Assembly (NCBI RefSeq): GCF_008831285.2
Contig: NC_045142.1
Span: forward strand, 7,540,713 to 7,604,712
DNA length: 64,000 bases
DNA from: Nymphaea colorata
Lineage: Eukaryota; Streptophyta; Magnoliopsida; Nymphaeales; Nymphaeaceae
Reading direction: 5' to 3'
The notes below the pieces were generated by a model. That model ran no database searches, had not been told where the DNA came from, and worked only from the letters and a program-made list of their open reading frames with translations. Below, one piece after another: positions 8,826-64,000 of this stretch. The translations under genes and the position numbers were made by a program. Each line of letters begins with the position of its first letter. Position 1 is the stretch's first letter.

Positions 8826-9017
8826 CATGGGCGGAGCCAGGATTTCTTTTAGGGGCGGACCAAATGAAGGTTGGGTTTTGTGGGTTGGATTTGAGTAGGG
8901 CCAAACTGAACTCACATTCAAAAAATACATGGAGGCAAAAAAAAGAAAAATAATTTTTACACTGTATTTTTTTTTTCATTTGGTTGGGTGGGGCCATGGC
9001 CTAGGTGGCCCCCCCTG
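8826..9017 (-). mobile_element. hAT-type MITE inside array unit 3
   Basis: Runs from CATGGGCGGAGCC to GGCCCCCCCTG. Flanks are AGTGTGCC (8818-8825) and ACTGTGCC (9018-9025), a 7/8 target duplication. The neighbouring unit at 8063 has the uninterrupted sequence GAGTGTGCCCTACCAT, which is the empty site. It belongs to the same family as 1223-1404, inverted. Confidence 0.85.
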
Positions 9018-18796: not shown

Positions 18797-19584
18797 ATGA
18801 CGACCAAGCAGCCGGAATACTCCGACGCCAGCCGCGACTCACTTGTCGTCCAGCTTGCCGGTAATGGCGGTTCGCGGCCTTGCCGGAAAAAGGGTGGGTG
18901 GATCACCTTCCCCTTCATCATAGGTAAGTTCAACTCCCATCTTCCTAATTCTCAAGCAGATCGGTCGGTTGATCGATGCTTGCAACATGCATGGTATAAT
19001 TAAGCTTACAGACGCGGGTGTGTTGGTGGAAGCAGGAACCAGTATGATGCTGGGACTCGCTGTGAATGGTGCATTCGCAAACATTATCGTCTACCTCGTC
19101 CAACAATTCAATGTTGATCAGATCACCGCAGTGCAGATCTTGAATGTATATAATGGATCCACCAACATTACCCCCGTCGTTGGTGCCATCATCTCAGATT
19201 CCTGCCTCAGAGCTTTCACGGTTATCCTGATATCTTCACTCGTTTCCTTCGTGGTTAGTATAAATAAGGAGCTCCAAGATTGATTTTTTTGGGGTTTATT
19301 TTCTGTTGGTAGATCCCGGACAGGGATAAAAACCAGATCGTTTATTCTTTTGCTAAAAAAATGTTTTAAACAAAATAAAAACATCCCAAAATGTTTATAA
19401 AAGCTAATATGAAACCTGCATTAGTTTAAGCTATTTTTATGAAAGATGGGAGAGCCGTTCAATTTACTTATTATAAAAATAAAATAAAATTTTAAAAATC
19501 ATTAGCTTAATATATGTTTTTGATCAACTTATCGTTAACATCGTATCTGTAAAGTTGGATCGCAAAAAATACATTTTCTTAACC

Positions 19585-19675
<91 letters not shown>

Positions 19676-19846
19676 TATGTAGCCAGTCTTCACTTATTTA
19701 GAGTGTGAGAATCGTTAACTTCCTATACTACAAAAAGTGGTCATAGTGGTCATCAATGTCCAAGCCAAAGCGCATTGGAGGCACGCTGTGAAGCACTGAA
19801 AGAAAAAAGAAAAAACAGGTTTTATCAGCCAACAGAACTCCACCAC

Positions 19847-19884
<38 letters not shown>

Positions 19885-28647: not shown

Positions 28648-29250
28648 ACCTTAATGGTTCATCGGGCAGTATAGAAAGAGTGCATTTGACTAATATTGTT
28701 AAATGCAATGAGGCGAGGTGAGCTGACGTTTGTAAAATATATAATATCCATATAATGTTGTCAAAAACGAAAAATAACAACTGAAGTAAATAACAAATGT
28801 ATAAATAAAGAACAATGTGAAATACTGTTGTCGATACTACATCTTGGGATCCGTGGGCCATACCAAAACAATATATTACTTAGAACACTGTGCAACGAAA
28901 ATCACATGAATTAATTATAAGTCGGATGAACACACAAACAATGAAAAATAAATAATAAGAACTGCTACTTTTCTTTATAAGCCAATGGGAACAAAATGAT
29001 CAGCAACAACCCCGCGGGAATAGGCCTCTAACCTTTTATTTCAATAACAAAACATATGTACAACAAAAATTAGCAGTTACTCTACAAAAGGGGCTAGAAG
29101 GACGAGCCAAGAAACGAAACCAAACAAAGAGAACACCAAAAGCTGAAGGAACCAAATTTACATTGTTTGGGTTAAAAGAAACAAAATATCATGAGAAGTG
29201 ACTATAGTTGTTATATCAACTCTGAAAAGGCCAACGTCCTTCAAACATAA
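28648..29250. other. Intergenic DNA, nothing recognised
   Basis: AT-rich, no gene supported. Confidence 0.5.
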
Positions 29251-30009
29251 CCCGAATCAAAATGATCAAAACCAGAATCTAACAAGAGAGAAAGCAAGCT
29301 CTGCTAAATGCAAGAATGCCAAGAAAAAACTAATCTTTTCAACAATATGCTAACAAAAATTTTTAAAATGGAAAAGAGAGGGAGAGGTGGTGATCTTTAT
29401 TTGGAATAAGTATGCAACTAAGAAAGGCAATTGTCAACCCAGAAAGGAGACAAAAAGAGAGAAATGAACTCGTGGAGTAGCCTCACGAGATCCTGATCAT
29501 TGTCTGGTGGTTAATTGAAAATTTGTTAGTCATATATATTTAGTGTCTTTTAAAAAAAAAAATTCTGACTCCACCGCTGGGTCATTCTCTCATGGGGCCG
29601 AGATCGCCACATTGATATTCATGGGAGAGTGGAGAGAGCGTTCCAAGGGACATTTACACGCATTAAAAGTGTTTTCATGTGTGATGTGCTCCGAAGCCCA
29701 CCCTTAACGCCTCATAGCATGCAACATTGCTCTCGGCCGAGCAAAGTTTTGAAAATTTTCCGAGTCAAGATCGAGTTTCGTTTTTCTAGCGACGGCTTCT
29801 TTATAAAAATTGTGCACGTGAGTATGAAATTATCAAAAACACCTCTATTCGAAAGGACAAAAAGAAAAAATGAAATAAAAAAGGTTAAAAATTTAAAATA
29901 TACATTTCTTTATAAAAATTTTAAAAATACCCCAACCTTCTTTTTCTTTGCTTCTTTTGGGGTGGCGTGTATTGCAGAGAGTAGAAGCTAGCAACCATTA
30001 TAGAATTTT

Positions 30010-30268
30010 TAATGGGTTTGTTTTGGACTTCGGTGGGCTTGATAACGGTTTTTTAATGTATATTTTATTATTATTTTTACATATAATTACAATATTTTAT
30101 TATGATTTTTTATATTTATATATTATTTTATATTAAAAATATATATTTTATAATTTAATCAGGCCGGGCCTAGGCCAAGCTCAAGCCAAGCCCGACCCAA
30201 GTTTCGGGTGTTGGGCCTGCCAGCACCCAACTTCTTATCGGTTCAGGCCCACCCAATGCCCAGGCTTA
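30010..30268. mobile_element. Decayed hAT-like MITE in unit A
   Basis: Right end GCCCACCCAATGCCCAGGCTTA matches the family at 48012-48321, as does the AT-rich core (TTATTATGATTTTTTATATT). The left terminus is not recognisable. Unit B lacks this element at the equivalent place. Confidence 0.55.
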
Positions 30269-31813
30269 ATGGGCTCCATGAATTTGCTGGTTTTTCTAGG
30301 TTCCCTATTTTCTGTTTATAGAAGATCACCTTCTGTTTATAGAAGATCCCTATTTTCGTGTTTTTTCGGACATTGTGAAAAATATTTAATTGAAAACTAG
30401 CATAAAGGAATTACTTTTCCATGGTTTAAAACCCGGCGTTTGAAGGGCTGGAATTTTTCCATCCCATCCACTTCTGTGCTTCTGTTCAGTGGTGGAGGCA
30501 GGTATGGGCATTGTGTGGGCAACTGTCCACACTGACCAACAAAAAATGTTTACTATTATATTGCTACTTCATGATAATTTTTCTTATTGGTGCCTCTTAA
30601 AAATGTAAAATTTTATAACTAATGCCCCTCGGCTAGAATTTCTGGCTCCCTTCGGGATTCTGTCCTCCAAACTTTTTGTGCATTATCTTGTTGGATTGAC
30701 TGCTGGTGTTAATCATGAAGCCATATAATGCATGGGCGATGAGTGAGTTTATGAGGAGTTGTTTCTGTTTAGAGAAAACTTGGACGTGGTCTTTTTTCTT
30801 AAAAGAACCATAGGCTGGTTTTAGGAAGTATAGGCTTTGACCCAATTTATTTTGCTTGTGATTGTCCAAGGCAATAGCAGACCTACATATAGGCTAGTGT
30901 AGGCAACTTTTCATGCCAGCAACAAAATTTTTATTAATTTTTATATACTTTTACATAAATGTTTTACTTTTATTTACTTATTTATTTTCACGCCAGCAAC
31001 AAAATTTTTATTAATTTTTATATATTTTTACATAAAACATTTAATTACTTATTTATATATGTTGTCCCTTCAAAAATGAGAATTTCTACAATAATGTCTC
31101 ATAGCAAAAAAATTTTTGCTTCGGTTGTTAACATATTGTTCACTCAAAAGTAATAAAATGTTCAAACACCATAATTACTAGTAAAATTTGTTTGAGACTA
31201 TATACATTCAACTTGACACCTCTGGCCATAGTTTGAGACTATATACATTCAACTTGACACCTCTGGCTATAGTAGAGAAACCTGGTTGTATGCACCATAC
31301 TAGTATTGTTATTGACTAAAATAACTTTAGTTCACACTGAAAAAAAAATCATTTGTAAAGACAAAATTAAAAATGTAAAAAAAAAAAGTAAAAAAACTAT
31401 GAAGACATTTCTTTTTAATAAATTACCAAAATGTTCTTCCCTCCGTAAAATGTTTATGATCAATGCATGTATCTCCACTCTTCATTTCCATTATAATACT
31501 CCCAACTTGTACCCTCAAAGCTAATAATAATAATAATCTAAACATAAATGATGATAAATGAAAATTTTAAATGTAAAGTGTTTAGAAATTAACTTTTTTT
31601 CCATGCACATGTTTTGAAAAGTTCAAAATTTTGCATGCCATGTCATTAGTAAAACTCATTTTTTCACGTCCACTTGACAATATGCTGTCAATTAACATAC
31701 TTCGTTTTGGTTAATTTGTTCATTATTTGACATCAAGGAGGTCATAAACAAGGAGGCAAAAGGGGGTCGAGTAACATGAATGGTCAACAAATAAAAGTTT
31801 CGATGGGACTCAT

Positions 31814-32016
31814 AGGGTTGTAGCGCATTGGGTGGTAAGAGGATCTACCTCATAGAGGGACTTATGATTAAATTCTAGGGTAGTCGTTGTCATGTTCCAG
31901 TGCAGTCTTCCTTTTGACCATAACATGTTATAGAACAAGTTATGTGAACCTGACGGTAGAAGAGAGAGGGGTAGACAGCAGTGACCTCTCTTAGAGGCGG
32001 TGCAATGAACCATTCA

Positions 32017-32049
<33 letters not shown>
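31814..32049 (+). mobile_element. tRNA-derived SINE with poly(A) tail
   Basis: Starts GGGTTGTAGCGCATTGGGTGG, an A-box-like stretch, has a diverged B-box-like GATTAAATTC at about 31866, and ends in a long A run (32023-32049). Related copies are 34126-34247 and 46965-47144, both opening (T/G)(A/C)AGCGTATT and ending A-rich. Confidence 0.6.
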
Positions 32050-32053
<4 letters not shown>

Positions 32054-33408
32054 TTTAGAGGGTATATGTTATTGGTAAAAATAACCAAAATGCCCTTTTT
32101 GTTAAATGGAAAACCCTTATTTTTCTAAAAGGGCAAAAGTATAATCTTAGAAATTTTTAAAATTACCAAAATACCCTTACAATAAAATGAAGGAACACGT
32201 CTTCCCATGTTAACGGCAGAACATATAATGAATGATTGATCAACCTATGCTGCAAACATCGATGCGTATGGAATTGGGGTATCAGCAAAATATGTGTTTT
32301 TATTGGCTCTTTCCAGCAACACGGAATGATCTGATTCATACTTTATCAAGAACCGGTTGAACCGGTTGAGGTTGATTAAAGGTGAAGCGACCACACTTAA
32401 AGGGGCAGAGCATAGCTAGTTGGGTGGAGACAAAGTGAAAGTTATGTCTTTATTTTGATTTCGATGGAACTGATGCTCCTGGGCCATATAGAGCGGGATG
32501 TGATACCTAATTGATGTTACACATTGGTTGGAGGAGCATTAATCCAAAACTTCCATGCTTGAAGGGACATTAATATACACAAATAGACAAATATTTGGAG
32601 ACAGCAATATAAAAATAAAAGTTTTTTTGAGGCAGTGAGGGCAATTGCCCACACCAGATCACGTTTGGCTCTGCCATTGCGTCTAGATGCCCACACAAGT
32701 CAATACTTTGAGGGTAAAAGGGATGCCCTTGAGGGTGTTATGCCTCATGCGCGCAACATAAGTTTTGAAGGAAAAAGAGTGACTTGCTTGAAAAAATTGT
32801 TTTAGACTGTCATCTAAACACCACCTAAAATGCTTCTAGATGCTTCTTGAGGACAAGAATGTGCTCAAAGAACTCACTTGGGGGAGAGAGAGAGATAGAG
32901 GTGGTGGAATAATTATGCAACTAACAAAGGCAAGTGATTGTCGGACATTGCTAGCCAACAACCACCAACTGAGGAAGGAGACAAAAAGAAAAAAATGCCG
33001 ATAAAATGGAAATGTATATCAAAATTTGAGAAGAAAAAGACAAAAAAAATGAATGAACTCACTCGGGTGTGAGCCAGAGAGCTTACTCCTTGAAATGTTA
33101 ATTTAGTGCACATGAGTATGAAATGATCAAAATACTTTTATTGGGTATAAAAAAGTTTTTAAAAAGAATAAAAAATGAAAATATAAAAAGTTAAAAATTT
33201 AAAATATACATTTCTTTATGAAAATTTTAAAAATACCCCAACCTCCTTTTTTTTTTTCTTTGTTTCTTTTGGCGTGTATTTGTGCATGCACCGTGTGCCC
33301 TGGGCACGCAACTCGACGTCGTTGCAGAGCGTCACCTCGTGTGTTCATTTTAGTAGACGCTAGCGGCTGTATAGAATTTGATGGGTTTATAACTTTATAT
33401 TCTGTGTT

Positions 33409-33648
33409 CGGGTGAGCAAGAGGTATTAATCCCACCGCCCGAAAAAAGCCCGAAGGCCCCCCCATTCCCCCTGCCTCCGGGGTCCTGAGCTGCGTCGGTG
33501 TCAGCGATAGCAACGGTGCATCCTTCAGCTTAGATGTCGCGCCCTACCGCCTTAAGACACAGGAACATAACGCCCACGGGAATCGAACTAGAGACCTGCC
33601 TTAATACAGGCCCCTAGCTCAACCAGCTACGCTATGCCCCTTGAGGCG
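33409..33648 (-). mobile_element. tRNA-derived SINE, 240 bp, 12-bp target duplication
   Basis: On the minus strand the 5' end reads GGGGCATAGCGTAGCTGG, an exact RNA polymerase III A box (TRGCNNAGYNGG), followed about 35 bp on by GTTCGATTCC, a B box. The rest is a non-tRNA body ending GCTCACCCG. Exact direct repeats ATATTCTGTGTT lie at 33397-33408 and 33649-33660. These three features together identify a SINE. The tRNA-like part is not a functional tRNA gene. Confidence 0.9.
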
Positions 33649-34125
33649 ATATTCTGTGTTATAGGATGTTGCCACCATGAATACGGTGGTTTTTCTAGCC
33701 TCTAGGGTTCCTTTTTTTCTGTTTATAGAAGATCGCCTTCTTTGTTATGTGCTTCTTGGGATCATGGTTGATTTGGACGGTTGATGAAGGGATCTTTCCG
33801 GCCGACTTGAGTCGGCTTGATGTGAAATTTTGACAGAGATTTAATTGAACTAGCATAAACGAATTACTTTCCATGCTTTAAAACCTGTCGTCGTTTGAAT
33901 GGCTGGAATTTTTCTGTCCCATGCACTTATGTACTTCTGTTGACGGGCGGAGGCAGTATGGCATTGTGTGGGCAACTGCCCACACTGACCCCAAAAATGT
34001 TTATTTTCATATTGATATTTTATGATTTTTTTTTTGTTTAAATATTGATGGCCCTGTCCATGCTTGGGTTGATCTCCCAACTTTTTTTGGATTGACATGA
34101 ATCATGGTCAAAAAAGGTTACCTCG

Positions 34126-34247
34126 TGAAGTTGCAGCGTATTAAGCAGTAAGGCAGTCCACTTCTTAAAGGGACTTGGGATTTCAAGGAGACTCGCAGGG
34201 CAATGGAAGGAACCACTCACTTTAAAAAAATAATAATAATAAAAAAA
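34126..34247 (+). mobile_element. Truncated tRNA-derived SINE copy in unit B
   Basis: Shortened copy of the 31814-32049 SINE: TTGCAGCGTATTAAGCAGTAAG at the left, AACCACTCACTTTAAAAAAATAA at the right. It is probably the same ancestral insertion, carried by the duplication. Confidence 0.55.
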
Positions 34248-35040
34248 CTCATTTGGAGGTTAAATGTTATGGACCAAAATGACCAAAATACCCTTTTGTG
34301 TTAAATGAAAAACCCCGACTTTTCTACAAGGGCAAAAGTATAATCTTAGAAATTTTCAAAATTACCAAAATACCCTTATGATAAAAGGTGGGAACATAGC
34401 TGCCCATGTTAACCGCAGAACATAAAAACGCATGATTGATTAAGCACTGCTGCAAACATCGATGTCTATGGAATTGGCATACCGGTTGATTAAAGATGAA
34501 GCGACCACGCTTAAAGGGCAATGCATAGCTAGTTGGGTGGAGATAAAGTGAAAGCCACCTATGGGACCGATGCTCGTGGGCCATATAGAGCGGGATGATA
34601 CCTAGTTGATGATACACATTGTTCCTGCATCTAAACCGTGGCGGAGCAGATTTTGATTGGAGGAGCACTAATCTAAAACTTTCATGCTTGAAGGGACATT
34701 AATATATATATATATATATATATATAAGACGAGTGCCGGCAATTGCCCACACCAGATCACATTTGGATCGGCCATTGCTTCTAAATGCCCACACAAGTCA
34801 AGACTTTGGGGGTGAAAGGGATGGAGAATCTCTCATGCCTTTTGAAAACCAGGTTTTTACAAAAATAGTTTTTGAAAAAGCCTGATTTTGGTGTCATGCA
34901 AACACTTAAAAAAAAAAAACTGTTTTGAAGGCAAAAGGCTGACTTGCCAAAAAAATTTGTTTTAGAGTGTCATCTAAACACTACCTAAAGTGCTTCTACA
35001 TGCTCCTAGAGGACAAGAATGTGCTCAAAGAACATGTTGG

Positions 35041-35850
35041 TTGCACCACCCTAACTTATGCAACACACATGTACCAAAGGGACTTTGGAGCTTTTTAACA
35101 ATTCCTGAAAATGAAATAGTCTGCTTTTTGGAATTTTAAGTATTTTCTCTAATTTTCCATATTTGTTCTTATAGGGCTTTTCTCACACTTAGATCATTTT
35201 GCACCCAAATGCACCAACAAACTAAGTCACTGAACTCTTCTATTTTATTGCCACACCCGAGTCGCATCGAGTCAGGTGCGCACAAGACATGGTGCGGCTC
35301 CAACTCATATTCGAGCCCAGTTTGAATGTTATATTACTAAATTACTTATATAATATATGTTGTTCCGATATTTTCCTGTGCAATACAATTAGTCAAGTAT
35401 GTTATATACATTAATAACTAAATTGTAATAATAATATATACATGTTTATTTTGATATATATATATATATATATATAAAATTTAAAATAATAACAATAATA
35501 AAATACCCTGACCTCACTGCCGCACCTAAATTTTTTAGGATGTGCTGCTTGGGCGCCCGCACTCGCACCCCGCACTCTGGTGACATAACCAACAAATATA
35601 AACCGAGTATAACCAGATTCAGTATGTTCTTCATGTGTTCGAGGGGCCAGACTGAAATTTTACTTCAGCTGTGGAGGAAAATGGAATTTGTCTAAATCCT
35701 GCGGCTGCCATTGTTCACCAACCAAACTCGGGAAAGGTTGGTGGTGAGGATGAATTGCAGATTATTGTAAAACAAGAATGTCCGTAGTATCATTAGGTAA
35801 TATGTCATTTTCTTCTACTTCAATCATATTTATTTACGGGCATGTACCGT
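35041..35850 (+). repeat. Left arm end of the inverted duplication, upstream of NPF copy 2
   Basis: Inverted relative of 44820-45145: for example TTATGCAACACACATGTACC near 35071 against GGTACATGTATGTGTGTTGC near 45084, and CTGCTGGAGGAAAAT-like / ATTTTCCTCCACTGC near 35670 and 44990. Contains an (AT)n run at 35454-35476. Confidence 0.75.
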
Positions 35851-36154
35851 TGCTAGAAATTTGTTTGTCAGCTATTTCTCAAAATGTGTATAGGCGTCGA
35901 AAATGAGTTTTTTAAAATCTTACAGGAGCCAAATGAAAATTTTCAAAATTATAACTTTAAAATTTTCTTTTCTTAAAATTTGAAAGGAATACCATGACCC
36001 TTGCCTGCCCCTGATGTTATGGTCACTATAACACCATAATGCTCTAAAATGGTTCCCTACTGAACTAAGACATTATTAGATGCCAAAAATTTTGGTTATC
36101 TTTTATTGAATGTCACCATTCCACCATTTGCTTCTGATCATGCATGGGTTTTAA

Positions 36155-36505
36155 GAATGTCAATATATTCACGTTGAATCAAGTATCCAATCAAACCATT
36201 TGAAAAATCATATATGGAAAAAAAAATTAACGTCTGATCAGATCGTATTCAATTTTGAATCACATTTAGTTTTAATTAAATATCATATATCCAATGCTCT
36301 TACATCTTGAAAACCCGTCATATTCGGTTCAAATTCAGATGTAAATGTCAAAAAAGGATTCAGATTATGAAACCGAATTTTTTTAATTTAGATTCGACTA
36401 TGATATTTATTTGTTTGTATTTGAGCCTGAATATGTGAATATTGAAAGAAGTTTATATAGTTAAGGTTATATCTAATTCAAATCTAATCCGTTGACATCC
36501 TTAAT
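36155..36505. repeat. Degenerate AATCCGATTT-rich repeat, copy 3
   Basis: Ends in the imperfect inverted pair AGAATGTCAATATATTCA and AATCCGTTGACATCCTTA. Same family as 15190-15535. An (AT)n(AG)n compound microsatellite follows at 36577-36648. Confidence 0.6.
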
Positions 36506-36574
36506 CGGCCCACCAAACTCTTCTGCATGACAGAGCGCCCTTGTAGTTTCCCTCATCCCTGTAAGAGGGCCAAC

Positions 36575-36651
<77 letters not shown>

Positions 36652-36800
36652 CAATAATTTTATTCTTAGATTCAGACTCATTTTGATGATACTGCTTTCG
36701 GATTGGAATGTGAGTATTCGACTTTTTTTTTTTTTTGAAACTATGTAAAAGGCAGGCCGCAAATGGGAAATTCTCATAAATCTATGCATGTCACCAGTCA

Positions 36801-36808
36801 TATATATA
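36801..36808 (+). promoter_or_regulatory. Probable TATA box of the second NPF gene
   Basis: TATATATA 67 bp before the ATG, in the same context as in the first gene. Confidence 0.55.
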
Positions 36809-36867
36809 GATGTCACCAGTCATCCTGCTCCTTCATGAGTTGCGCGCTGTGATCAGCACTTGAAAAA

Positions 36868-39800
36868 ATGACGACCGCGCAGCCCGATTTCTCCGAAGCG
36901 GGCCCTGACTCGCTTTTCCTCGAGCCTCCCGGTAATGGCGGTTCGCAGTCCGGCCGGAAAAAGGGTGGGTGGATCACCTTCCCCTTCATCATGGGTGAGT
37001 TCACCTCCCATCTTCCTTGTTCTCAGGCAGTAGATCAGTTCGTTGATCAATGCTTGCAACATGCATGTATAAAATATAATTAAGCATATACATGTGGCTG
37101 TGTAACTGTGTTGGTGGAAGCAGGAAGCAGTGCGATGCTGGGGCTTGCAGTGAATGGTTCATTTGCAAACCTCATCGTCTACCTCATCCAACAATTCAAT
37201 GTTGATCGGATCGCTGCAGCGCAGATCTTGAACGTATTTAATGGATCAACCAACATTACGCCTGTTGTTGGTGCCATCATCTCAGATTCCTTCCTCGGGG
37301 CCTTCATGGTTATCCTGATATCTTCACTCATTTCCTTCATGGTTAGCCTATTCTATCTCTCTTACACACACACACACACACACACTCTGAGTCTCTCTTT
37401 CTCTCTTAAATGGTCGTAGCATAGCTCTGGAGGTGTGTCTCCCATGTTCAGCTCTTCTGATGGTATTAAGAGTTGGATAAATGATTATGGCATAAGATTA
37501 TTAGTTGTTCCCGTGCTGCGCCGCACCATCACAAATGTCTTTGCTGCTTTAAGATTGATGAACTGACTTAATGGAGTGTTTGATAAGGCCAGAATTGTGG
37601 AATTCTAAAATTAAAATTCTCAAAATTTTGATTCCAGAATTATAGGTTTGATCTTTGGAGTTGTGATTCTACCTTTGAGGGTGGGATTAAGATTACAGAA
37701 ATTTAGAATTTTTCATCTCTCTTTATGACACGTCATAGTGGTTTTCATCAATTCTAAAATTTTAATTCTTTTTTTTATTAACACAACATTTTCAAAATAG
37801 AACTGGAGTTTTCATTCCAATTCCAGTTTGAGGTGGAATTTTGTTTTTGGAATTTTAATCATAAAATCAAAATTCAAGGCAGTCAAATGACCCCTGAAAG
37901 TCCAATGTCAAAATTATCACTTGGCTTAAGTTAGAAGAGTTCTTATAACAGCCCTCAAAGTCAGGATTACATTTCTCATAATTGGGTGTTGCACATGGGG
38001 AGTAATGGCTAACTAGAACTAGAAAGGAATAATCACACAAATATGTTAATTTGTAATGGAAAATATCAAAGTAAATAGAGAACTCTTACTATTGTTTGGC
38101 AAATATACCAGCCAGTCTTTATCGACATATATGTACGATACGTAATTCCAATTACTGTAGTAAATCTCAGCTTTGTTCTCGTATTACTTGAACCAAGGAA
38201 ACCAATGCATACGGGGCGGTAAACATTGACCTCTATCGACCATAGAGTTAAAATCTCAAGTTAATTTTTTACGAAGGAATCGATGCATATCTATCTGCCA
38301 ATAACGGCCAATGTGGGCAGACTTTGAAATATGTCTGGGTTTGGTTAGATATGTTTGGAATCAGCAAACAAGAGTTGGATCTGGTTTGGTTTCATGGAGG
38401 TTGGGGTGGTGTAGGTAAGAAGGAGCAGGAAGTGACTTTCTCACCCTCTTGACAGGGAAACTGTACATTTCATATGGAACTATTTTATGAAGCAAACAGG
38501 TTCCAGCCACCAACACCCAATCACTTTCAAAACACACAAATAGTTGGTTAACTTAACTTGTCAATGGCGGACATATGAGATGGAAACATGCATGTAATTG
38601 CAATCACCTGCTCTCATGGCTTCTTGTTGTGACATCGATGTCTCCTTTTCCCTTGCTCACCGGTTGTCATGGCTTTCTGTACTCATGCCTCTTCTTATAT
38701 ATATAAGTAAAACAGACAATGAAAAACCCTCTAACAGGACAAAGTTAGAAACTGAATGATTATCTTTTTTGAGAAAGATCGACAAAAACGCCCTTTTAAA
38801 ACGAAAAAAAAAATACCCAAGAAAAAAAAATGTTTGAGGCTAGTAGCTGAGCTCGCGGTTAGGTGATTCAAGTGCCTCTTAACAAAAAAAAATTCTAGCT
38901 TCGCCGCTGCCCTGACACATTACGGATGTACTGGTAATAAATAACTTATATTTAATTAAAAAAATTATTATTATTAATTATATTTATGCATTATTTTATA
39001 TTTAAAAATATCAATCCAGCCGGATAGGTTCCAAACTGCAGTCACGGGATGTGGCTTGCGCCTACTCTTTATCGGGCCGAGCCGGGTCAGGCCGGCCCTA
39101 TGCGTTGAACACCCTGTTGACGTTTGAAATGTCTTTTTAATCCATCCTCTTTATTTTATTTTTCAGTATTGTCCATCGTGTAGTAGGACCAACGAGCGCC
39201 AATCAAACTTTACCTTAAGGATAAGAATAAGCTAAAAAGGGGCTTTATTTACTCTCTTTTTACGCTTGCCCGTATGAAAGAGATCACACATTGCTTTGAA
39301 AATGTGTGTCTCTAACACGTAAAATAGAAGCTTGCAGGGAATCTGTCACAGTTTCGTTGTCAGCTCGAAAACCTTCTCTTGTAACAGCTACTGAAGCATC
39401 ACATACTCAATTATTACCTTTTTTTCCTTTGTGGTACGAATCATGTTCTTTGATTAGTGAACGTTGGCCGGTGCTTGAATAAGAGGATGCATTTTGATCA
39501 CCTTCAGGAAGAAGCCATTCGACATTATAGATCTTTTCCTTCTGATGCCCATATATAGGAGGTTACTTCTCATCTTTGAGTGTGCAAAGCTCCAGTCCAA
39601 GGAATTCATGATTCATTTTGCTATGTAGATCTGATGTGATGCCTCTCAAACTTCCTTCCTTGTAAAGACGGGCCTCCTCTGAATTTCTTATAGCTTGCAT
39701 AAGACTCTTATCATGTGGCATCAAGTAGCCAGCCTTGGTCTTCTAATCTTCCCTCATGATTTTAGCGCATTCTTGACAAAGCATCCACAACTGCTTGACC

Positions 39801-42800
39801 AAAATTTGAAGAGGGTTTGAGTCGTATGTGGGCATGTGTGGATAGTTGCTCATCCATTTTCACAAAATTTGGTTGTTTACACTTCAGTAAGCTTATAAGA
39901 TTGTTTGTTATGGAATTGATATGTGTGGCAGTGGAACCAGCCACATATAGGCTGGTGTGGGCAGTTGCCCACCCCAGCTTCTCAATTTTCTTTCATTACA
40001 TTAAGATCGTTGGATATTTACTTGTTTATACAAGTAAGTGCCCCTTTAGGTATGAAAACCTGTGAATCAATGCCTCTCTAGAAAATTTCTCTGGCTCTGC
40101 CACTAAGTGCAACATGTTGGGAGGTGGTTCTGGAATTGCACCTTGGTGCCTCTCAATTATATTGGAGTTCTATTTTTTTTTTAATTAGTAGTACCCTTTA
40201 GCCAAAAAATTTAGGCTTCGCCACTAGTTGGTTTCGGTCCTAGTAAAGTGAATATGATAGAAGTAAATTTTGAGCATTAAAATGCTAGGTTTTTGCCCGG
40301 TAAAGAGAAAATTGCTTCTACCAGTCAACTTGAACCAAGAAGAAGATACTAGCCATCGATCTGATCTGTACTAAATAGGATTATTGTCCCTCACTATGAT
40401 TATTAGACCAAGTGGAAAAGCAATTCGGATTGAGTAATTCCTCGAAGGTGTTAAATTTGGGATATAAACGGTCACGTAAAACAGAAAAACACCCAAGACA
40501 ATGCATTGCGTTAAGCTTAATTTGACAATAGCTAAATAAACATCTGAACAATTGATGAAATTAATCTTGTCCAACATGAAGATTACATCTCCCAACCTGG
40601 TTCTGCAGAAAAACGCTCATACTAAAACTTTTTAGTCATAAGTTATGTGCAAAACAGTCATTATCTTTTACAAACTGAAGGCTATCTTTTTTGTCAAAGT
40701 TAACTGTTCCCATTAATTTAGTCTAGATATATATTAGCCCTTGACTTAAGCTAGACTTGTTCTAGTTAAGTAAAGGTGGCAGATTTATATAGAGAACTTG
40801 GAACAAAAAAGATGGCTTTGGAGAATGGCTTCAAAGGTGGATCGTCATGGAAATTAATAGATCTATAACAATATGTTATGCTGGTAACTTCTTTTAATTA
40901 TGCACGGTGACTACTGCTAGAGAAGTCTTCGGCATTCTTTTACAAGAAGAAACGTTTGCCTGTCAAAGCTAGCTCAATTTGCTTTGAGAACATTTGAATT
41001 GTGACCGAACTCTTTGAACTCCACAGGGTCTTATTCCACTGACTCTAACATCTATACTGCCATCACTTCGGCCCTTACCTTGCGCATCAACAAGCAACCA
41101 ATGTGAAACACCATCGGCGTTGCAGTACACAGTCCTCTACATCTCACTAGCTCTGGTTGGTGTAGGGATTGGAGGCACAAGATTTACAACTGTCGCATTT
41201 GGGGCGAACCAATTCGCCGATGAAGCGAGTCGGGATGTTTTTGTTAATTGGTTCTTCTTCTCACTCTATACTGCTAACCTCTTGGCTAGCACAGTTGTTG
41301 TGTATGTGCAAGATAATGTGGGATGGGCTTGGGGTTATGGGGTTTGCTTAGTTGCTAATATTATTAGTGTTTTTACCTTCATTATTGGCAAATGGCACTA
41401 CCAAGATGTGAGGCCTCAGGGAAGTCCATTCACTGGCATTGCTCGCGTTCTCGCCGCAGCCATCCGGAAGAGGAGAGTGGCGCTGTCACCAAATTTTGAT
41501 GACTACTTTTATCAAGACGACAGTGAGATCGCCAAGAAGGAGCCATGTCTGTTAACTCCCAAGTTCAAGTTAAGGCCACTTTCCTTCACTTTGTTGCATC
41601 ACGTTCTACTAACTTTGTTTAGTTATACGTAACACTAGTGTAGGCCCTGCAGAAACCCATGATTGTTTGTGGTATTTGTTAAACCACATCATTCAGACGT
41701 TTATGCAAAAGTTAATTAGTTAGGGTCCAAATTACAAAATCTTATTTATGTGTATTTTTGGCTAAATATAACATGGATAACATATGTTTCAATTTAGATC
41801 AAATTAGGCTTCAAGAGATATAGCATAGCTGCTTAAGGTAGCTGGCTTGAAGATCTCACATTGTCGGTTGGATTTTGGTGGGTGTTTTTGCTCCCGAGTT
41901 ATATGGGCTGGAGCACTGCACCAACTTGGAGGTGCAATGACTCCATGCTAGGCCTTGATGCAGCCTTGGACTTTCAAGACAAGGAGTTTTCAGCTCTTGT
42001 CTATGCACCAAAAAGTTAAATCAAAATAGAAACCAACCATGTTTTAGTATGTAAACTAATGCATTTTATGATATATATATGTGTATGTGTGTGTTTTGGC
42101 AAATGGGTCCATGAGGACTGCGTGGGCTTAGGGAAAAATGTGTTCTTCTCCAATGATTGGTGGACATTAAGAACAATAAAGCCACATATTTATAAACTGC
42201 CCTCATTGATCTCTTGCTTAATGTTTCTTTTCTGGCATCTGTCATGCAGGTTTCTCAACAAAGCAGCCCTTGTAGAAGAAGGAGACACCCATTCCGGTGG
42301 ATCAATAGCAAAACCATGGAGGCTATGCACAACTCAACAAGTGGAAGACCTCAAAACGCTCATCAAAATACTACCAATTTGGTCCAGCAACATATTTCTC
42401 GGGTTACCCATTGGGGTTCAAGGTAGCTTGGCTATACTTGAAGCCCTCACCATGGACCGCCGCTTGGGCTCCCATTTCTCTATTCCAGCAAGTTCATTCT
42501 TGGTCTTCTCCTTCCTTGCTGGAGCCGTCTTCATTGCTCTCTTAGACCGTGTTGTCTACCCATTTCTCCACAAGTTATTGGGGTTGTCGCCGACACTCTT
42601 CCAGCGCATTGGTGCCGGCCATTTGATCACTATCATGGGAATGGTAGCGGCAGCTCTAGTCGAGGCCCGGCGACTAAGTATAGCACATAGTCATGGTACC
42701 ATGGAGCAGTTCAATGCAACTGTACCCATGTCCGCCCTTTGGCTCGTGGCTCCCTTTGCACTGGTAGGTGCTGGAGAAGCGTGCCAACTTCCAGCTCAGG

Positions 42801-43063
42801 TGAGTTTCTACTTTGAGGAGTTCCCGGCACCGTTAAAGGGCTCGTCGGCGGCGATGATGGCCGTGATCATTGCCATTGGATTTTATCTGAGTGCTGCTGT
42901 GGTGAAGATCGTGAAGATCTCAACTAGTTGGTTGCCAAATGATATTAACCATGGGAGAATGGATAATGTATTTTGGATGCTTGCTGTTTTGGGGGCTTTC
43001 AACTTCTGTTACTTTGTCATATGTGCCAAATTGTATGAAAGAAAGCCTTCAATCAAACATTAA
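36868..43063 (+). CDS. NPF (NRT1/PTR family) transporter, NAXT-like, copy 2
   Basis: Four exons: 36868-36994, 37124-37341, 41027-41568 and 42250-43063 (1,701 bp, 566 aa), with GT-AG introns of 129, 3,685 and 681 bp at the same phases as copy 1. Exon lengths equal copy 1 except that exon 3 is one codon shorter (DDSEIAKK against DDSIEVAKK). Same hallmarks: KKGGWITFPF, GVGIGGTRFT, FLNKAAL, WLPNDINHGRMD. It keeps the conserved SDSFLG stretch that copy 1 has lost, so it is the better candidate for the functional carrier. As in copy 1, span 1 has no ExxE(K/R) motif. Known of the branch: NPF2 NAXT-type proteins of Arabidopsis export nitrate; for this protein substrate and membrane are inference. A long open frame starting at 42059 reads through intron 3 and is not the gene start. 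Confidence 0.94.
37364..37385. repeat. (CA)n microsatellite in intron 2 of NPF copy 2
   Basis: Short AC run 22 bp after the exon 2 donor. Confidence 0.9.
37573..37897. mobile_element. MITE in intron 2 of NPF copy 2
   Basis: Left end GGAGTGTTTGATAAGGCC, right end CAGTCAAATGACCCC, an imperfect inverted pair. Same family as 22040-22437 and 48480-48815. Confidence 0.65.
39930..40112. mobile_element. hAT-like MITE in intron 2 of NPF copy 2
   Basis: CAGTGGAACCAGCC at the left and CTCTGGCTCTGCCACT at the right form an inverted pair. The inner GTGTGGGCAGTTGCCCACC matches the 14143-14318 family. No clean target duplication. Confidence 0.55.
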
Positions 43064-43112
43064 GTAATTGCCTCTGCAGGAGAGGTGCAAGAAGTGGGAA
43101 ATATATATGAAG

Positions 43113-43118
43113 AATAAA
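43113..43118 (+). terminator. Polyadenylation signal of NPF copy 2
   Basis: AATAAA 50 bp after the stop, in the same context as copy 1. Confidence 0.6.
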
Positions 43119-44819
43119 ATTCTCATCATATTTTCGTATGTCCAAGATATTCCTTAAATGCCAACCAGTAGTAATTAATTAATTCACAATATTCACCATG
43201 ATTAATGAAACTTTATAAGTTTGTGGCATATGTGCAATAATATTATTTCGTTGAAAATTATGACAAATAATAACACCGTTTAATTATATAATAAGCTCAT
43301 ACTAGAAGAAAACCAAATTGATTATCATCCATAAGGAAGGACAAGAAGACCTAAATGAATAATTTTAAAATTGAATTCAATCAAGAAATAACCGATTCAA
43401 ATCAAATTGGCAAGAATTCGATCTGATGCACCATACTTGGATGTCTCCATAAATTGGCCTTTCATTTTATGAACTTGATGATTAATTCTGAACTAAGTCA
43501 GACATTTACGTTTGATCTGCCCAAGTACCTGTATTGATATGCAGGTACAATGATACGGATACATGGGTACAGCTGGGTATATATGACTGTATTTTAAAAT
43601 TTTAAAATTTATATTTTCAAACGTAATTTTTTATTTAATTTTGATTTTTTTTCCTTCTTTTATATTCATTCCATCTAGATTCTATATTGTCCTCTCTTTT
43701 TTTTTTTAAATTTTGAGATAGGGATTGGTTTCGGCCTTTTCCAGTCTGAATCTGCTACATTCTAGATTCCAATGTGAAATTTACTCACAACTTCGCATGC
43801 AAAACATCATTCATGAAATCTTCAGAATATTTCTTTTCATACTCGAAAAATGACAATGGTGTCGGCATAGTGACCAAGAAAACCTATTTGAAGACTCGAC
43901 ATATATATGATACACTATTTTTTTTTTAATATTTATTGCTCAGGCCTTCTTGGTTGAATTTGATTCTGTTGATTCTAGAGTAGAACGTGAGTTCTGCTGT
44001 GAGGACAGTTTAGTTGATGAAAATGTTTCCAGGGATGAAGTTTGAAGGTTTTATAGAGGAAGCAGGGATTAATCATTTGGGAAAGCAATGAATGTGAAGA
44101 TGAAATCAACTTTCGCAACCAACGATCTCCAAATTCTGGTAATCAATGAAATGAAGGTGCAAGATGATGATGTCTGTCGTATGGATATAATATTGTGTCT
44201 GTTTTATATATGAATCTGCATCCAAATTTTGAACTGACCCATTTTCAAAATGTAAGTGCATTGGATATATAATATTTATTTAAAACTAAATGTGTTTGAA
44301 TATGAATCCAATTGGACATTTGTGCATATTTGAATCCGATCGGATGTCATTTATTAAACCTAAATTCGATAAGATTTCTTAATCAGATATTACATTTTTT
44401 TCATATCCAATTTTTTGAAACGGTTCAGTTCGATATGTGATTTAAATCTAATATATTCACATCCTTAGGATCAATGCAGGATCAAGAGCTTGTGGATCAA
44501 CCACACGCTGCTCGATTCAGCATTGCAAAGTGCGGCTTTTCGTCATTTTAAATAACAAGTGAACAAAATTTGTTGCATATATCAACATCCTAATTTTGTA
44601 GTGCAACAGTTTAAATCTTGTAAGCATTATGGTGCTAGAGATACATAAAAGAAAACCTAATTTTGAAAACTTTCACTTGGCCCTTATAAGTTTTTTTTTT
44701 TTTAAAAAAAACATTTCAAATTTTCAACCCTACAAAATTTTGAAAAATAGTTTAAAAAATATAAAAAAATTCTAACTTGGCCCCTGCTCGCTTGAAACAC
44801 GAATACTAAAGCTTGCCAG
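43119..44819. other. 3' flank of NPF copy 2 and intergenic DNA
   Basis: The first ~450 bp match the 3' flank of copy 1. A further AATCCGATTT-rich repeat copy lies at 44205-44470. No gene seen. Confidence 0.6.
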
Positions 44820-45170
44820 CTATAATGATAGCTGCGTGTAAATAAATATGATTGAAGTGAAAGAAAATGACACATTGCCTAATAACATTCCTGATGACAC
44901 TTTTCTTTTATAATAATCTGCAATTCATCCTCACTACCAACATTTCCTGAGCCTGGTTGGTGAACTCCAATAGCAGCGGCTGGATTCCATTTTCCTCCAC
45001 TGCTGAAGTAAATTTATCCTTCTGGCTGGTGACTCGAACACATAAAGAAAGTTACAGGATGCCCAAGTCTACCAAAGTCCAGTTGGTACATGTATGTGTG
45101 TTGCATAAGTTAAAGGTGGTGCAACCAATAAGTTCTTTGAACCGTTCTCATCCTCTCGAAGCATTTTAGA

Positions 45171-45486
45171 TAAGCATGGGCACCAAGCCGCCGGTGGGTA
45201 CCCAGTACCCGGCCCAGTCGAGCCCGGATCTAGGTCGGGAAAACCAGGTCCCGGGCTGGGTTCGAGCCAGCCCAGCCGGCCCGTCCCCCATCCTCCTCCC
45301 CCGTCCCCCATCCTCCTCCTCTCCTTCTTCCCCCTTTCTCTCCACCTCCTCCGCCTCTCCTTCTTCCCCCTTTCCCTCCACCTCCTCCCCTCTCCTTCTT
45401 CCCCCTCCCCCCCATCGAGCCAGGCCAGGGCCCAGGTTTCGGGCCCAATGGGCTGAGGGCTGGGTATTACCGTATACCCACCCCTA
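45171..45486. mobile_element. hAT-type element, 316 bp, 8-bp target duplication
   Basis: Ends TAAGCATGGGCACC and TATACCCACCCCTA. Exact duplications ATTTTAGA at 45163-45170 and 45487-45494. GC-rich, with CT tracts like the interior of 10531-11548, so probably the same family. The left arm (about 34975-35010, inverted) has the uninterrupted site. Confidence 0.88.
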
Positions 45487-45719
45487 ATTTTAGATAGTGT
45501 TAGTGTTTGGATTACACTTCAAAACAGATTTATGAAAGCAAAACAGCTTTCTGCCATGATAACAGGTTTACACCGTTTGGATGACAACAAGATCAGGTTT
45601 TCTCAAAAATTATGTTTTGAAAACCTGAAGAGCTTTAGGTGTGTCATCTAAAACCCACAAACCAATCTCTTTAAACGATTAAAAAACGATTTTTTCAGAA
45701 CAGTTGTCACCACTCGTAA

Positions 45720-45985
45720 CTCGGGCACGAGCTCGGCTTGATTAAATTACAAAATATAATAATATATAAATATTATAATTATAATAAAATATTATAATTA
45801 TATATATATATAATTAATAAATTAAATATTAAAAAACTGTTATTGGGCTCACCTGAATTTATCGAGCCTACTTGGGCTAGTCCGGTAATTTATCAAGGTG
45901 GCTCGGTGCCCTTTTTTCAAGACCCAGGCCCGGACCCAAGTCGAGCCAGGTACCTGCCGGTGGCCCGGTCCAATGCCCAGCCTTA
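45720..45985. mobile_element. Decayed hAT-like MITE in the right arm
   Basis: Right end GGTCCAATGCCCAGCCTTA matches the 48012-48321 family; the AT-rich core is similar. The left terminus and target duplication are not recognisable. Confidence 0.5.
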
Positions 45986-46439
45986 AGCAAAATAAAGACA
46001 TGGCTTTGGCTTTATCTTCACCCAAGTAGCAATTCTCTGCCCCTTTGAGCATGATAGTTTCACGTTCAATCAACCCGTTCTCGACAAATTATGAATCAGA
46101 TCCTTCCTCTGGCTGGAGAGGGCCAATAAAAATGCATATTTGGCTGATATGCCACTTCCCTGCACATTGATGTTTGAGCATAGCGTATTCGACCATGTGT
46201 TCCATGTTATGCCGCTAACATGGGAAGGCAGGTTCCCTTTGGTGTAAGGGCATTTTGGTAATTGTAAAAAATATATATATGATTCTAAGCCCTTGTGGTA
46301 TGTAGAGGGAAGGGTGCTCCATTTAATAAAAAAGAGTATTTTGTCATTTTTAGTCCATAACATGTGGCCCGTTGTTAAGGGCCATAGTATAATCTCATTT
46401 GAGTATTTTTAGGGGAGGAGTGGTTCATTCCACTACGTA

Positions 46440-46850
46440 AAAGATGTCACTGCCCTCTTCCTTTCCGCTCCTCCTTTTTTCTCTTCTTTCTTCCTCTGTT
46501 CCTCTCTGTGAGAGCGGCAGAGAGAGAGAGAGAGAGAAAGGCCGATTCCCAGAGCTTGAATGGCGAGTGCGAGGGAGAGAGGGAGGAGGGACTTAGCGCG
46601 AGAGAGAGGAGGCTCTCCCCGTCGCTATTTGTATACATTCGAACCTGCGACCTCTTGTGGTGCCCACTCGTAATCATTTCCTACCTCTCCCCTCGAGGAC
46701 GTCGTGCGCGCGGCTCTACTCACTCCCCCGGGCGACGCCGTGGACCCCACTATTCGAATACTAAAAGCTACGACTTCACATTCTGCCTTGTTCCTACATA
46801 AATTTTCAGCCTTGCCATCCGCGCCGTGAAACGACGTGAGAAGTGCCGTT
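46440..46850. other. GA-rich insert with B-box-like sequence, origin unclear
   Basis: Absent from the left arm. On the minus strand it contains GGTCGCAGGTTCGAATG, close to a polymerase III B box, so it may be SINE-related. No A box or target duplication was found. Open frames here are Arg/Glu-rich and not convincing. Confidence 0.35.
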
Positions 46851-46964
46851 GTAGCGACTCTCGACCGAAGTGGGCATTGCGTAATTTCGGATCAAAACAT
46901 GTATTTTCTTATTTTACCTAAAAGTGTCACTGCAGCCAATTGTTTTTTCTTAAATGTTGCTCGA

Positions 46965-47144
46965 AGGGTGTAGCGTATTGGCTGGCAAGACGGTCTACTC
47001 CAAAAGAGGTTCACCCATGTTTACTGTCACAATAAAGTGCACTATTCTCTTACACTATAAAAAGATCTATGAATCGAAAGGATTACGGCCTCCTTTTAGG
47101 GTACTGGAGATATAACCACTTACCCAAAATTCAAAAAAAAAAAA
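46965..47144 (+). mobile_element. tRNA-derived SINE with poly(A) tail
   Basis: GAAGGGTGTAGCGTATTGG at the left and an A run at 47133-47144. Related to 31814-32049. It lies on the same strand although the arm is inverted, so it is an independent insertion. Confidence 0.55.
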
Positions 47145-47817
47145 TTTTACCAAAGAGTTTCAAGTTAAAGGAAGCCTAGACACCAGTAAAAGCTAGGTTT
47201 TACTTGTTATTTGTGGTCAAATATTGAAATAAAATTCTAGAAACGTTTTGCCCTTTGGCAATTGAACTTGTATGTTTTCGTTACATTTTCCTGTTTGTAA
47301 GACAAGGCCTTCAATGTTTACTTACAAGATTATGCTTTTCAAAAAAAAAAAAAAACTAAAATATGCACAAGATCATTAGGGTTTGCTTCAGGACTTATTA
47401 TAGTTCGTTGAAAGAAAGTATTGGAACGTGACAGCGACCACTCTAAAATTTAAATACATGTTCGTGAACCGCTTTGTCACCTAAGGCACTACGATCCCTT
47501 GGTAACCTCCTCTTAGTTGAGTCTAATCCCGTTGAAAGGCAACAAGAATTAATGTTGACACCAAAATTATTATTTGTTGTAAATCCATGTAATTGGATCT
47601 CTTTGGCCTCCTGCTTCAGCCTTCCTTGACATCAAATAGTGAACAAATCAACCAAACGGCGAGAAATTTTTAAGATTGCATGTCGTCAAGGGAACGTGAA
47701 AAATGAGTTTTACCAAATGACATGGTACGCAAAGTTTTGAACTTTTCGAAATATGTGCAAGGAAAAAATTAATTTCCAAACTTTTTTTTATTTAAAATTT
47801 TCATTTACATAGTCTTG

Positions 47818-47863
<46 letters not shown>
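47818..47863. repeat. (ATT)n microsatellite
   Basis: Trinucleotide run at the place where the left arm has a shorter (AAT)n at about 31522-31538, inverted. Confidence 0.95.
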
Positions 47864-48011
47864 GCTTTTAGGGTACCAGCTGAAAATATTATAATGGAAA
47901 TGAAGAGTGGAGGCGCATGGATTAATCATAAAGGTTGTACTCCACGTACCTACTTTCTGCCACGGATTCTAATGTGAAAGGATGAACATTAGTGTTTATG
48001 TTTCCTCCAAC

Positions 48012-48321
48012 TAAGGCTGAGCATCGGGCGAGTACTCAGTACCCAGCCGACTCATGCCCGAAAAAAAGACATCGGGCCGGTCCGATAAGTTATCAGGTTG
48101 GCTCGACTAAGCCCCTGATAAAAAATTTTTAATACATATTTTATTGATTTTTATATATAATTATAATGTTTTATTACGATTCTTTATATTTATATGTTAT
48201 TTTATATTAAAAATATTTTTAAAAATTTAATCAGGCTGGGTCTGGATTCGGGTTGTAGGTGTCAGCCCAAACTTGGGCATCAAATCGGCCCGAGCCCGAG
48301 CCAGCCCAATGCCTAGGCTTA
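48012..48321. mobile_element. hAT-type MITE, 310 bp, 8-bp target duplication
   Basis: Ends TAAGGCTGAGCATCGGGC and GCCCAATGCCTAGGCTTA, with exact CCTCCAAC at 48004-48011 and 48322-48329. The most complete member of the family that includes 28434-28647, 30010-30268 and 45720-45985. Confidence 0.92.
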
Positions 48322-48479
48322 CCTCCAACTTAACTTAACAGCCAGAGTTGTCAAGTTCAATATATGTAGTGTCAAACAAGTTTTGGCCCTGCCTTCGGGG
48401 TCCTATGTTGCATCAGCATGGGTGAGCAGTGGAACAATAAAGCACCCCCACTTTTTAGGCCTAGAGAAAGTAGCACCAA

Positions 48480-48815
48480 ACTCTCATTTTCTATTAAATG
48501 AGAATTGTGCTACCAAACAAGGTTAATTCTTGAATCAAAATTCCAGAATTGTCATACCACCCTATTGGATAGTATTGTGATTCTAAAATTTTGAAATTTT
48601 ATCATCTCTCTTTAAGGCACAAGTCATGAAGGTTTTTAATCTATGAACTCAAACATGCCATTTTCAGTTTTGGAATCAAAATTCTATACTATCAAGTACA
48701 AAGGGAAAGTAAAACTAGAACTTTTATTCCAATTCCAATTTGATGTGGAATTTTGGTTCTAGAATTGTAATTCTAAAAACAAAATTCAAGGTCATCAAAA
48801 GCACCCTTAGATAAT
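48480..48815. mobile_element. MITE of the intron family (22040-22437, 37573-37897)
   Basis: Shares TTTATCATCTCTCTTTAAGGCAC-like and GATGTGGAATTTTGGTT stretches. Right end GTCATCAAAAGCACCCTTA. Confidence 0.6.
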
Positions 48816-48958
48816 CAAAAGCAAAATAGATTGGGTCAGAGCGTAGCACATCTAGGAAACTTAAGAGATCTAAAAGAGTTTAGACCACTCATTCAGTCAA
48901 CCATAACATGCAGAGCCATGTTCCATGATCACACCTGTCTAACAAGAAGAAATGAGAC

Positions 48959-49148
48959 CAGGGGCGGAGGAAGGGGGGGCGCCTAGGCCATGGCCCCACC
49001 CCAGCCAATTTTTTTTTTTTACATTGAAAAAAATAGAAATTTTTAATTGCATAATGTATTTTTTGTATTAGAATTCAGTTTGGCCCTATCTGGATTCAGA
49101 GATCGGACTGTCGGCCTGCCCCTAAAGAAAATCTTTGCTCTAATCCTG
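48959..49148. mobile_element. hAT-type MITE, 190 bp, 8-bp target duplication
   Basis: CAGGGGCGGAGG at the left, CTCTAATCCTG at the right, exact AATGAGAC at 48951-48958 and 49149-49156. Same family as 1223-1404. Confidence 0.9.
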
Positions 49149-49927
49149 AATGAGACCACATCCTAGTTTTCTCTAAACAGAAACAACTCTTCATAAGCTC
49201 ACTCATCACCCAAGCATCATATTGCTTAATGATTTCTACGAAACAAAACTAGATTTAACACCAGCAGTCGATCCAACAAGAAAATGCACAAAAAAGTGAG
49301 AGAAAAGCTCTCACTTCTCTTTCTCTCTCTTTCACTTTTAGAATTTTTGTTAGCATATTGTTGAACAGATTAGATTTTCTCTTGGCATTTTTTACATTTA
49401 GCATGGTTTGCTTTTTGGCTTGTTAGATTCTGATTTTGATCATCTTGTGTGCTTTCTAGGTAGCCGGCTATAAGAAAGGTAGCAGCAGTCCTTCTCAATG
49501 ATCATCTTTCATTGTTTGTGTGTTCATTCGACTGAACATAGTACTCTAAATAATTGTTTAGGAGCTCTTTAGGAGCAATGAACCGAGCAATAAACAAAAT
49601 ATGAGAGACATTTTGAAAATTATTTTAAAAATAATGTTTTTTTATTTTTATTTTTATTTTTGTCTTTACAAAAAATTTTCTTTTTTTATTAATCAAAAAT
49701 ATTTTCGTTATTAAATCACGAAAAAATCATACACCACCAGTATGACATAACCAGCTTCGACTACCGTTGCCTTGCGATCAGGCGAATTAGAGTCGGAGCT
49801 CGACTCGTTAAACAGTCCGAGTCCGAGTTGATACTTAATACGTGGCATCCGCGTAAATTGGTCGCAAAACGGTCTTCTATGTTAAAACGCCAATGCTGCT
49901 GGGCAGGGAGAGCAAAAGGGGGTTCTC

Positions 49928-50061: not shown

Positions 50062-53886
<3,825 letters not shown>

Positions 53887-56547: not shown

Positions 56548-56825
56548 TCATATCGATATCTCATACTTCTATCATTATCTCATACTTTTGTCATTATTTT
56601 GTACTTGTGTTGTTATCTTATACACATTATCTCATATGTTGTATGATAATAATATCTCATACTCCTATCTTCATCATACAAGTGTTTTTATCTTATAATT
56701 ATTGTCTCATACCTCAGTCATTATCTTATACATGTAGGGATTTAAGATAATGACAAAAGTATAAGATAATATATATAAGATAACCACAGATATATGGGAT
56801 AATGACAGATGTACAAGATAACGCT
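56548..56825. repeat. Foldback array of TATCTCATAC-type motifs
   Basis: A degenerate ~20-24 bp unit (ATTATCTCATACTTTTGTC and variants) is repeated about seven times up to 56740. It then appears as its reverse complement (GACAAAAGTATAAGATAAT and variants) about four times up to 56825. The centre is TACATGTAGGGATTTAAG. Confidence 0.75.
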
Positions 56826-60275: not shown

Positions 60276-63984
<3,709 letters not shown>

Positions 63985-64000
63985 TAAGTGATGCATGACA

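Follow-up and report, generated by a model that had tools for sequence, protein, structure and literature searches.

NPF genes and collinear inverted arms

The window analysed here is a 64,000-nucleotide stretch of the Nymphaea colorata genome (C5:7540713-7604712, C5 being contig NC_045142.1). It contains two transporter genes of the NPF family, and the second of them, NPF copy 2 (NPF2), is enclosed intact in a spacer between the two arms of an inverted duplication, whose inner ends share a miniature inverted-repeat transposable element (MITE). The principal features are as follows.

18797..24475, plus strand: NPF copy 1 (NPF1), in direct orientation, with an open four-exon frame; exon 4 supported by Pfam
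28909..36345, plus strand: left arm, the putative donor; its inner limit is the end of homology to the right arm, inside the MITE
36152..36503, plus strand: complete MITE where the left arm ends towards NPF2; its two terminal inverted repeats can be recognised, with 15 and 16 of 18 bases matching the family motifs
36868..43063, plus strand: NPF2 (POT/PTR2 family), in the spacer, with four exons as placed and an open frame; exons 3 and 4 supported by Pfam
44203..44467, minus strand: the same MITE insertion, truncated, in the right arm
44203..49555, minus strand: right arm, the putative flipped copy; its inner end cuts the MITE at 44203

Assignment to the NPF/POT family was based on a PTR2 domain (PF00854) and an open frame. 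NPF1 and NPF2 share 85% amino-acid identity, the two genes are directly oriented, and their 3' flanks are directly homologous as well (24476-25088/43067-43691). A search with exon 4 of NPF2 returned 75 rows, 17 of which lay at 7.19-7.72 Mb on C5 and corresponded by count to about 15 loci, some with stop codons. All five exon-4 copies at 7.56-7.72 Mb (NPF1, NPF2 and three downstream) were on the plus strand; a minus-strand NPF block was located at 7.23-7.32 Mb and a partial minus-strand copy at 158.7-163.2 kb of a 224-kb comparison around the locus. Within the gene pair (22720-24475 and 41027-43063), synonymous divergence (dS) was 0.52 in exon 3 versus 0.18 in exon 4 (2 of 5000 permutations as extreme), and exon 4 contained an 86-base exact match between NPF1 and NPF2. 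Gene conversion in exon 4 is a possible reading of these sequences.

Self-BLAST yielded 11 collinear inverted blocks, hand-chosen from the hits, by which 28,909-36,345 pairs with 49,555-44,203 in reversed order.

Block 1, inverted: 28909-28983 with 49555-49466
Block 2, inverted: 29258-29398 with 49447-49304
Block 3, inverted: 30660-30792 with 49307-49153; the right side shares 4 bases with block 2
Block 4, inverted: 31183-31233 with 48384-48332
Block 5, inverted: 31445-31805 with 47940-47559
Block 6, inverted: 31863-31928 with 47456-47393
Block 7, inverted: 31964-32460 with 46470-45985
Block 8, inverted: 34850-34903 with 45627-45575
Block 9, inverted: 34991-35088 with 45176-45072
Block 10, inverted: 35627-36150 with 45049-44499
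Block 11, inverted, the shared MITE: 36153-36345 with 44466-44203

An additional pair, 34204-34557/46432-46001, represents the left arm's tandem copy of block 7. With the low-complexity filter on and E<=1e-4, the arm pair gave a chain of nine inverted blocks (1130 bits) and no direct block. Controls were drawn from 520 tile comparisons on both strands, whose tiles overlapped and were therefore not independent, and 140 of them were excluded because they touched the arm pair or the two NPF genes. None of the remaining 380 contained at least four collinear blocks, the best being a single 799-bit block. Reversed in order and collinear against these controls, the blocks confirm the multi-kilobase inverted duplication around the NPF gene that a preliminary description of this DNA had proposed. 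Its coordinates were nearly right: the arms extend to 36.35 and 44.20 kb rather than 35.9 and 44.8 kb, and the spacer measures 7.9 kb instead of about 9 kb.

Chance alignment of dispersed repeats might produce matches of this kind, and dispersed elements do sit in both arms. With the filter off, AT-rich elements among them gave arm-arm matches lying off the chain, in direct (30040-30171/48116-48243, 83%) and inverted (31309-31387/49714-49637) orientation. In a search of the genome (407.8 Mb, 783 contigs), the top four non-self matches of 31440-32500 were all local, comprising the tandem copy (82%/78%) and the right arm (74%/72%); its first 360 bases matched the right arm only, and weaker genome-wide matches started at query position 372, all among the matches listed (40 of 45 candidates). 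Likewise, 49317-49447 and 49472-49533 matched the left arm only among the matches listed (40 of 251 candidates). Low-copy status therefore holds for 31,440-31,800 and 49,317-49,533 among the matches listed, and is unproven for the remaining arm sequence. Queries with dispersed repeats were swamped (40 of 762, 1003, 1296 and 2858 candidates listed), and the search with the 35218-35588 element (40 of 762) omitted the query's known right-arm match; such lists can miss copies. Within the 224 kb around the locus (E<=1e-10), the larger shared blocks recurred solely in the arms and the tandem copy. Scattered, non-collinear dispersed repeats, named in the preliminary description as the pattern that would speak against the duplication, thus fail on collinearity, which exceeds all 380 controls, while a non-dispersed status applies to the two core stretches among the matches listed. 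With nine collinear blocks against fewer than four in every control, a chance origin is extremely improbable.

Coding content was considered as a cause of the arm similarity and rejected: blastp between arm frames gave nine matches, each of at most 31 residues. Ten hand-picked arm frames matched no Pfam family at E<=0.1, the search for RNA genes returned no tRNA and no Rfam family reaching its gathering score, and nothing indicative of a present function of the arms was found in these analyses.

A truncated MITE and the origin of the right arm

The MITE occupies one and the same site in both arms, with shared flanking sequence, and its divergence between them (0.215) resembles that of the rest of the arms (0.212). 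The element, which we take to be of hAT type, belongs to a family with ends like TAGGGATGTCAA/TTGACATCCCTA; under a lenient cut-off, 27 of 31 rows, including the truncated one of the right arm, passed at both ends. Matching of 8-bp target sites averaged 4.4/8 in the family compared with 2.2 in 108 control comparisons, with 8/8 in 3 of the 31 rows. Terminal inverted repeats and 8-bp target-site duplications thus characterise the family as a whole.

In the right arm, the outer end of the element matches 15 of 18 motif bases and the inner end 11, a score that unrelated sequence can also reach. Among the matches listed for the right-arm query, none of 44 non-self rows started before query position 511, which is 44202. 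Two copies elsewhere in the genome, close to C1:2980.7 kb and C1:6564.5 kb, matched the right-arm MITE up to the truncation point and also the left-arm MITE, which continues to the other end. Because these two copies match both, the right-arm MITE represents a truncated form of the same element, which makes the left inner junction the older of the two.

This polarity, the collinear inverted chain that beats the controls, the two arm stretches that match the partner arm only among the matches listed, the local-only recurrence of the larger blocks within 224 kb and the direct orientation of NPF2 to NPF1 support a local inverted segmental duplication by copying repair, in which the right arm, downstream of NPF2, would be a flipped copy of the left, an intergenic segment upstream of the gene, starting inside the MITE. 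We assign this reading a probability of somewhat more than one half (about 0.57). The MITE insertion would predate the copying. Some 1.1 kb downstream of the NPF2 stop codon, a break or stalled fork may then have caused the template to switch to a site within the MITE of the left segment, and copying would have run away from NPF2 over several kb before rejoining, leaving NPF2 untouched between the arms. Afterwards, the left arm would have undergone a tandem duplication and each arm received separate insertions; finally, the right arm would have acquired a composite filler made of two fragments from other chromosomes.

Several points weigh against the copying model. The left MITE's own 8-bp target sites agree at just 4/8, and loss of the right MITE's inner half by a later deletion, a possible if less simple alternative, would look identical. 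Polarity is known for the inner junction only, and no repeat spanning the outer junction was found among the matches listed. Junction microhomology is unreadable at the present divergence, and further arm copies may exist in the genome beyond the matches listed.

A serious rival, albeit on balance an unlikely one, is a staggered-break inversion, in which the NPF2 spacer was inverted and filled-in overhangs at one breakpoint left the arm segment inverted on both sides; given the MITE polarity, that segment would originally have lain to the right of a reversed NPF2. The final anatomy would be the same as that of Drosophila mojavensis inversion 2h, as presented in the available text of PMC3355041, and the minus-strand block and partial minus-strand copy mentioned above demonstrate that orientation flips exist in the NPF array. 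However, NPF2 is oriented as NPF1 and the three downstream exon-4 copies, so that an extra earlier flip is needed, and the isochromatid form of the model would require overhangs of several kb to be unwound, according to the available part of PMC7584159.

Alternatively, the arms may be two opposite insertions of a low-copy transposon, or products of alternative transposition of a hAT element. The hAT-like MITE at the inner ends would accord with this, and more arm copies could exist, one search having missed a known copy among the matches listed. In the portion of PMC8225341 available, Ac/Ds transposition can give inversions and inverted duplications, yet Ac inversion junctions fall exactly at element ends with 8-bp repeats, whereas the right-arm break lies inside the MITE. 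Furthermore, no other full arm copy occurred in the 224 kb or among the matches listed genome-wide, and no terminal repeats were seen by eye at 28909/49555. A transposon origin is thus less likely than the copying model and, taken by itself, improbable.

Order of events and later insertions

The following features distinguish one arm from the other.

29000..29199, no strand assigned: dispersed element, left arm only
29370..32873, plus strand: first copy (L1) of a tandem duplication restricted to the left arm
32883..35033, plus strand: second copy (L2) of that tandem duplication, without the part equivalent to about 30.6-32.0 kb
35218..35588, no strand assigned: dispersed element, left arm only; most listed genome copies are 80-86% identical
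46476..47363, no strand assigned: young composite insertion, right arm; outer limits approximate

L1 and L2 agreed against the right arm at 79 sites, compared with 32 and 24 for the other pairings (376 three-way columns). Owing to these shared states, the left-arm tandem duplication (~3.5 kb) is placed after the inverted duplication. Dispersed elements of the left arm at 29.0-29.2, 30.03-30.27 and 35.22-35.59 kb occupy sites without counterpart in the right arm, which in turn has about 888 bp absent from the left arm, the composite insertion. Each arm therefore carries its own, different insertions, as the preliminary description had held.

Two pieces, 22 bases apart, make up the composite insertion. 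The first, 46486-46899 (414 bp), matches the other strand of C3:21876182-21876594 with differences at 7 of 412 sites (~98% identity). The second, 46922-47363 (442 bp), matches C6 near 9267440-9267918 with differences at 14 of 441 aligned sites and nine gaps, which corresponds to ~97% identity gaps aside and to 87% by the genome search's own count. The query 46,440-47,420 gave four genome matches, itself included (4 of 4 candidates scored), and no further copy of the insert was found except an 81% partial match of the C3 piece on C9. Once joined, the flanks of the insert align to the left arm on either side with about 45 poorly matching bases between them, so that its exact limits are uncertain. 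The insert is about 10-fold less diverged than the arms. By analogy with the available portions of PMC4423477 and PMC3445842, it is likely filler DNA from synthesis-dependent repair, and parsimony points to copying from C3 and C6 into the right arm. Foreign copies have thus been taken up in the right arm, which was counted in favour of the copying model. A tentative and rather doubtful extension is that repair by copy-in has recurred at this locus: in the course of a long time, the NPF2 flanks would have gained a 5-kb flipped copy of adjacent DNA, a tandem duplication and, recently, a composite of pieces from two other chromosomes, and copy-paste repair, not repeat recombination, would be what reshapes this section of the transporter array.

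Under a gappy aligner, NPF noncoding sequence was the most diverged on a gap-free basis (0.278), followed by the arms (0.212) and L1/L2 (0.145), and this order of point estimates held across five aligner settings (mismatch = -0.7 in the fifth). The arms are old, as had been proposed, with a gap-free divergence of 0.21-0.33 depending on the aligner. NPF noncoding divergence (0.28-0.42) exceeded that of the arms in all five settings, with separate intervals in one and near equality in another (0.298 vs 0.292); the intervals for arms and left-arm tandem duplication were separated in four of five, the arms being older. The NPF 5' flank block was excluded from these interval comparisons. For coding sequence, NPF dS was 0.292 (0.237-0.357) and exon-4 dS 0.18-0.19; fourfold-site divergence was 0.249, close to the arms. 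A first dating, with arms below NPF noncoding divergence and 0.0005 of bootstraps against, turned out to be aligner-dependent. Arm blocks were picked as BLAST hits, which biases them to conserved pieces, and arm-arm exchange could also lower their divergence, which was somewhat uneven over 50-site pieces (chi-square 63, 41 degrees of freedom). Judged from these sequences, the NPF duplication probably preceded the inverted one, being at least as old.

The arms had also been suspected of a part in the event behind the second NPF gene. For one complex event generating both the NPF duplicate and the arms, it can be said that divergence intervals overlap in four of five settings, with the near equality noted above, and that the fourfold-site and exon-4 values are near or below that of the arms, with the caveat that exon 4 may have undergone conversion. 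On the other side stand the higher NPF noncoding divergence in every setting and the overall dS, the direct gene pair with direct 3' flanks, the array of about 15 loci, and the lack of any NPF-arm match in the self-comparison or the 224-kb comparison. These results fall short of disproof, and a joint event appears quite improbable.

The longest exact inverted match between the arms is 26 bp, which is too short for frequent exchange given the length requirements of recombination. Therefore, present exchange between the arms seems unlikely and looks spent. The idea that the palindrome favours inversion of its spacer was not borne out, with NPF2 oriented like four other exon-4 copies at 7.56-7.72 Mb; an ancient inversion of the spacer is possible.

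Elsewhere in the window, a cluster of diverged direct repeats extends over 2825-12371 and includes an inverted partner pair (2825-3797/7134-6162). A reverse-strand frame at 10530-11033, apparently truncated, resembles the start of a receptor-like kinase domain by eye only. Imperfect self-palindromes occur at 51981-52377 and 56570-56826. A 516-aa stop-to-stop frame at 58667-60217 matches the cytochrome P450 domain along nearly the whole profile and is thus apparently intronless. At 63469-63987, a frame carries RNA polymerase Rpb1 domain 2 (Pfam); we take it to resemble plastid rpoC1, perhaps as a plastid insertion in the nucleus.

Known rearrangements and the transporter array

The locus is a fresh example of a known and ordinary kind of rearrangement, unusual in how clearly its layers can be told apart. 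It resembles the breakpoints of D. mojavensis 2h and 2q and D. subobscura O7, where, in the accounts available, originally single-copy DNA is inverted on both sides of a segment. Inversion 2h carries an intact inverted duplication of 7.1 kb and a decayed one of 2.7 kb, as given in the available text of PMC3355041, and this unequal decay of its copies can be likened to the arms here. For O7, inverted duplications may, according to the available part of PMC7584159, arise by template-switch repair instead of by staggered breaks. The Drosophila cases, as far as these texts go, flank inversions established from related chromosomes, whereas the 7.9-kb spacer here is known from one genome and no inversion is shown. 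At 46.48-47.36 kb, the pieces matching C3 and C6 resemble plant double-strand-break filler DNA, in which unlinked segments are copied into one site. However, rice fillers at transposon excisions measure 1-123 bp in the portion of PMC4423477 available, in contrast to pieces of 414 and 442 bp and an arm of >5 kb at this locus.

With its direct copies of a transporter gene, the pair resembles other tandem NPF (POT-family) arrays. Unlike other NPF tandem copies, compared within 224 kb only, NPF2 has non-coding DNA duplicated in inverted orientation on either side. No literature addressing NPF, tandem duplication and Nymphaea together was found. Rearrangements around one transporter gene are layered at this locus: an NPF duplication was probably followed by an inverted duplication, then a tandem duplication and then a composite insertion, and the MITE cut by the junction provides an internal marker of polarity. 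The evidence argues against the palindrome having made the NPF pair, or now destabilising it.

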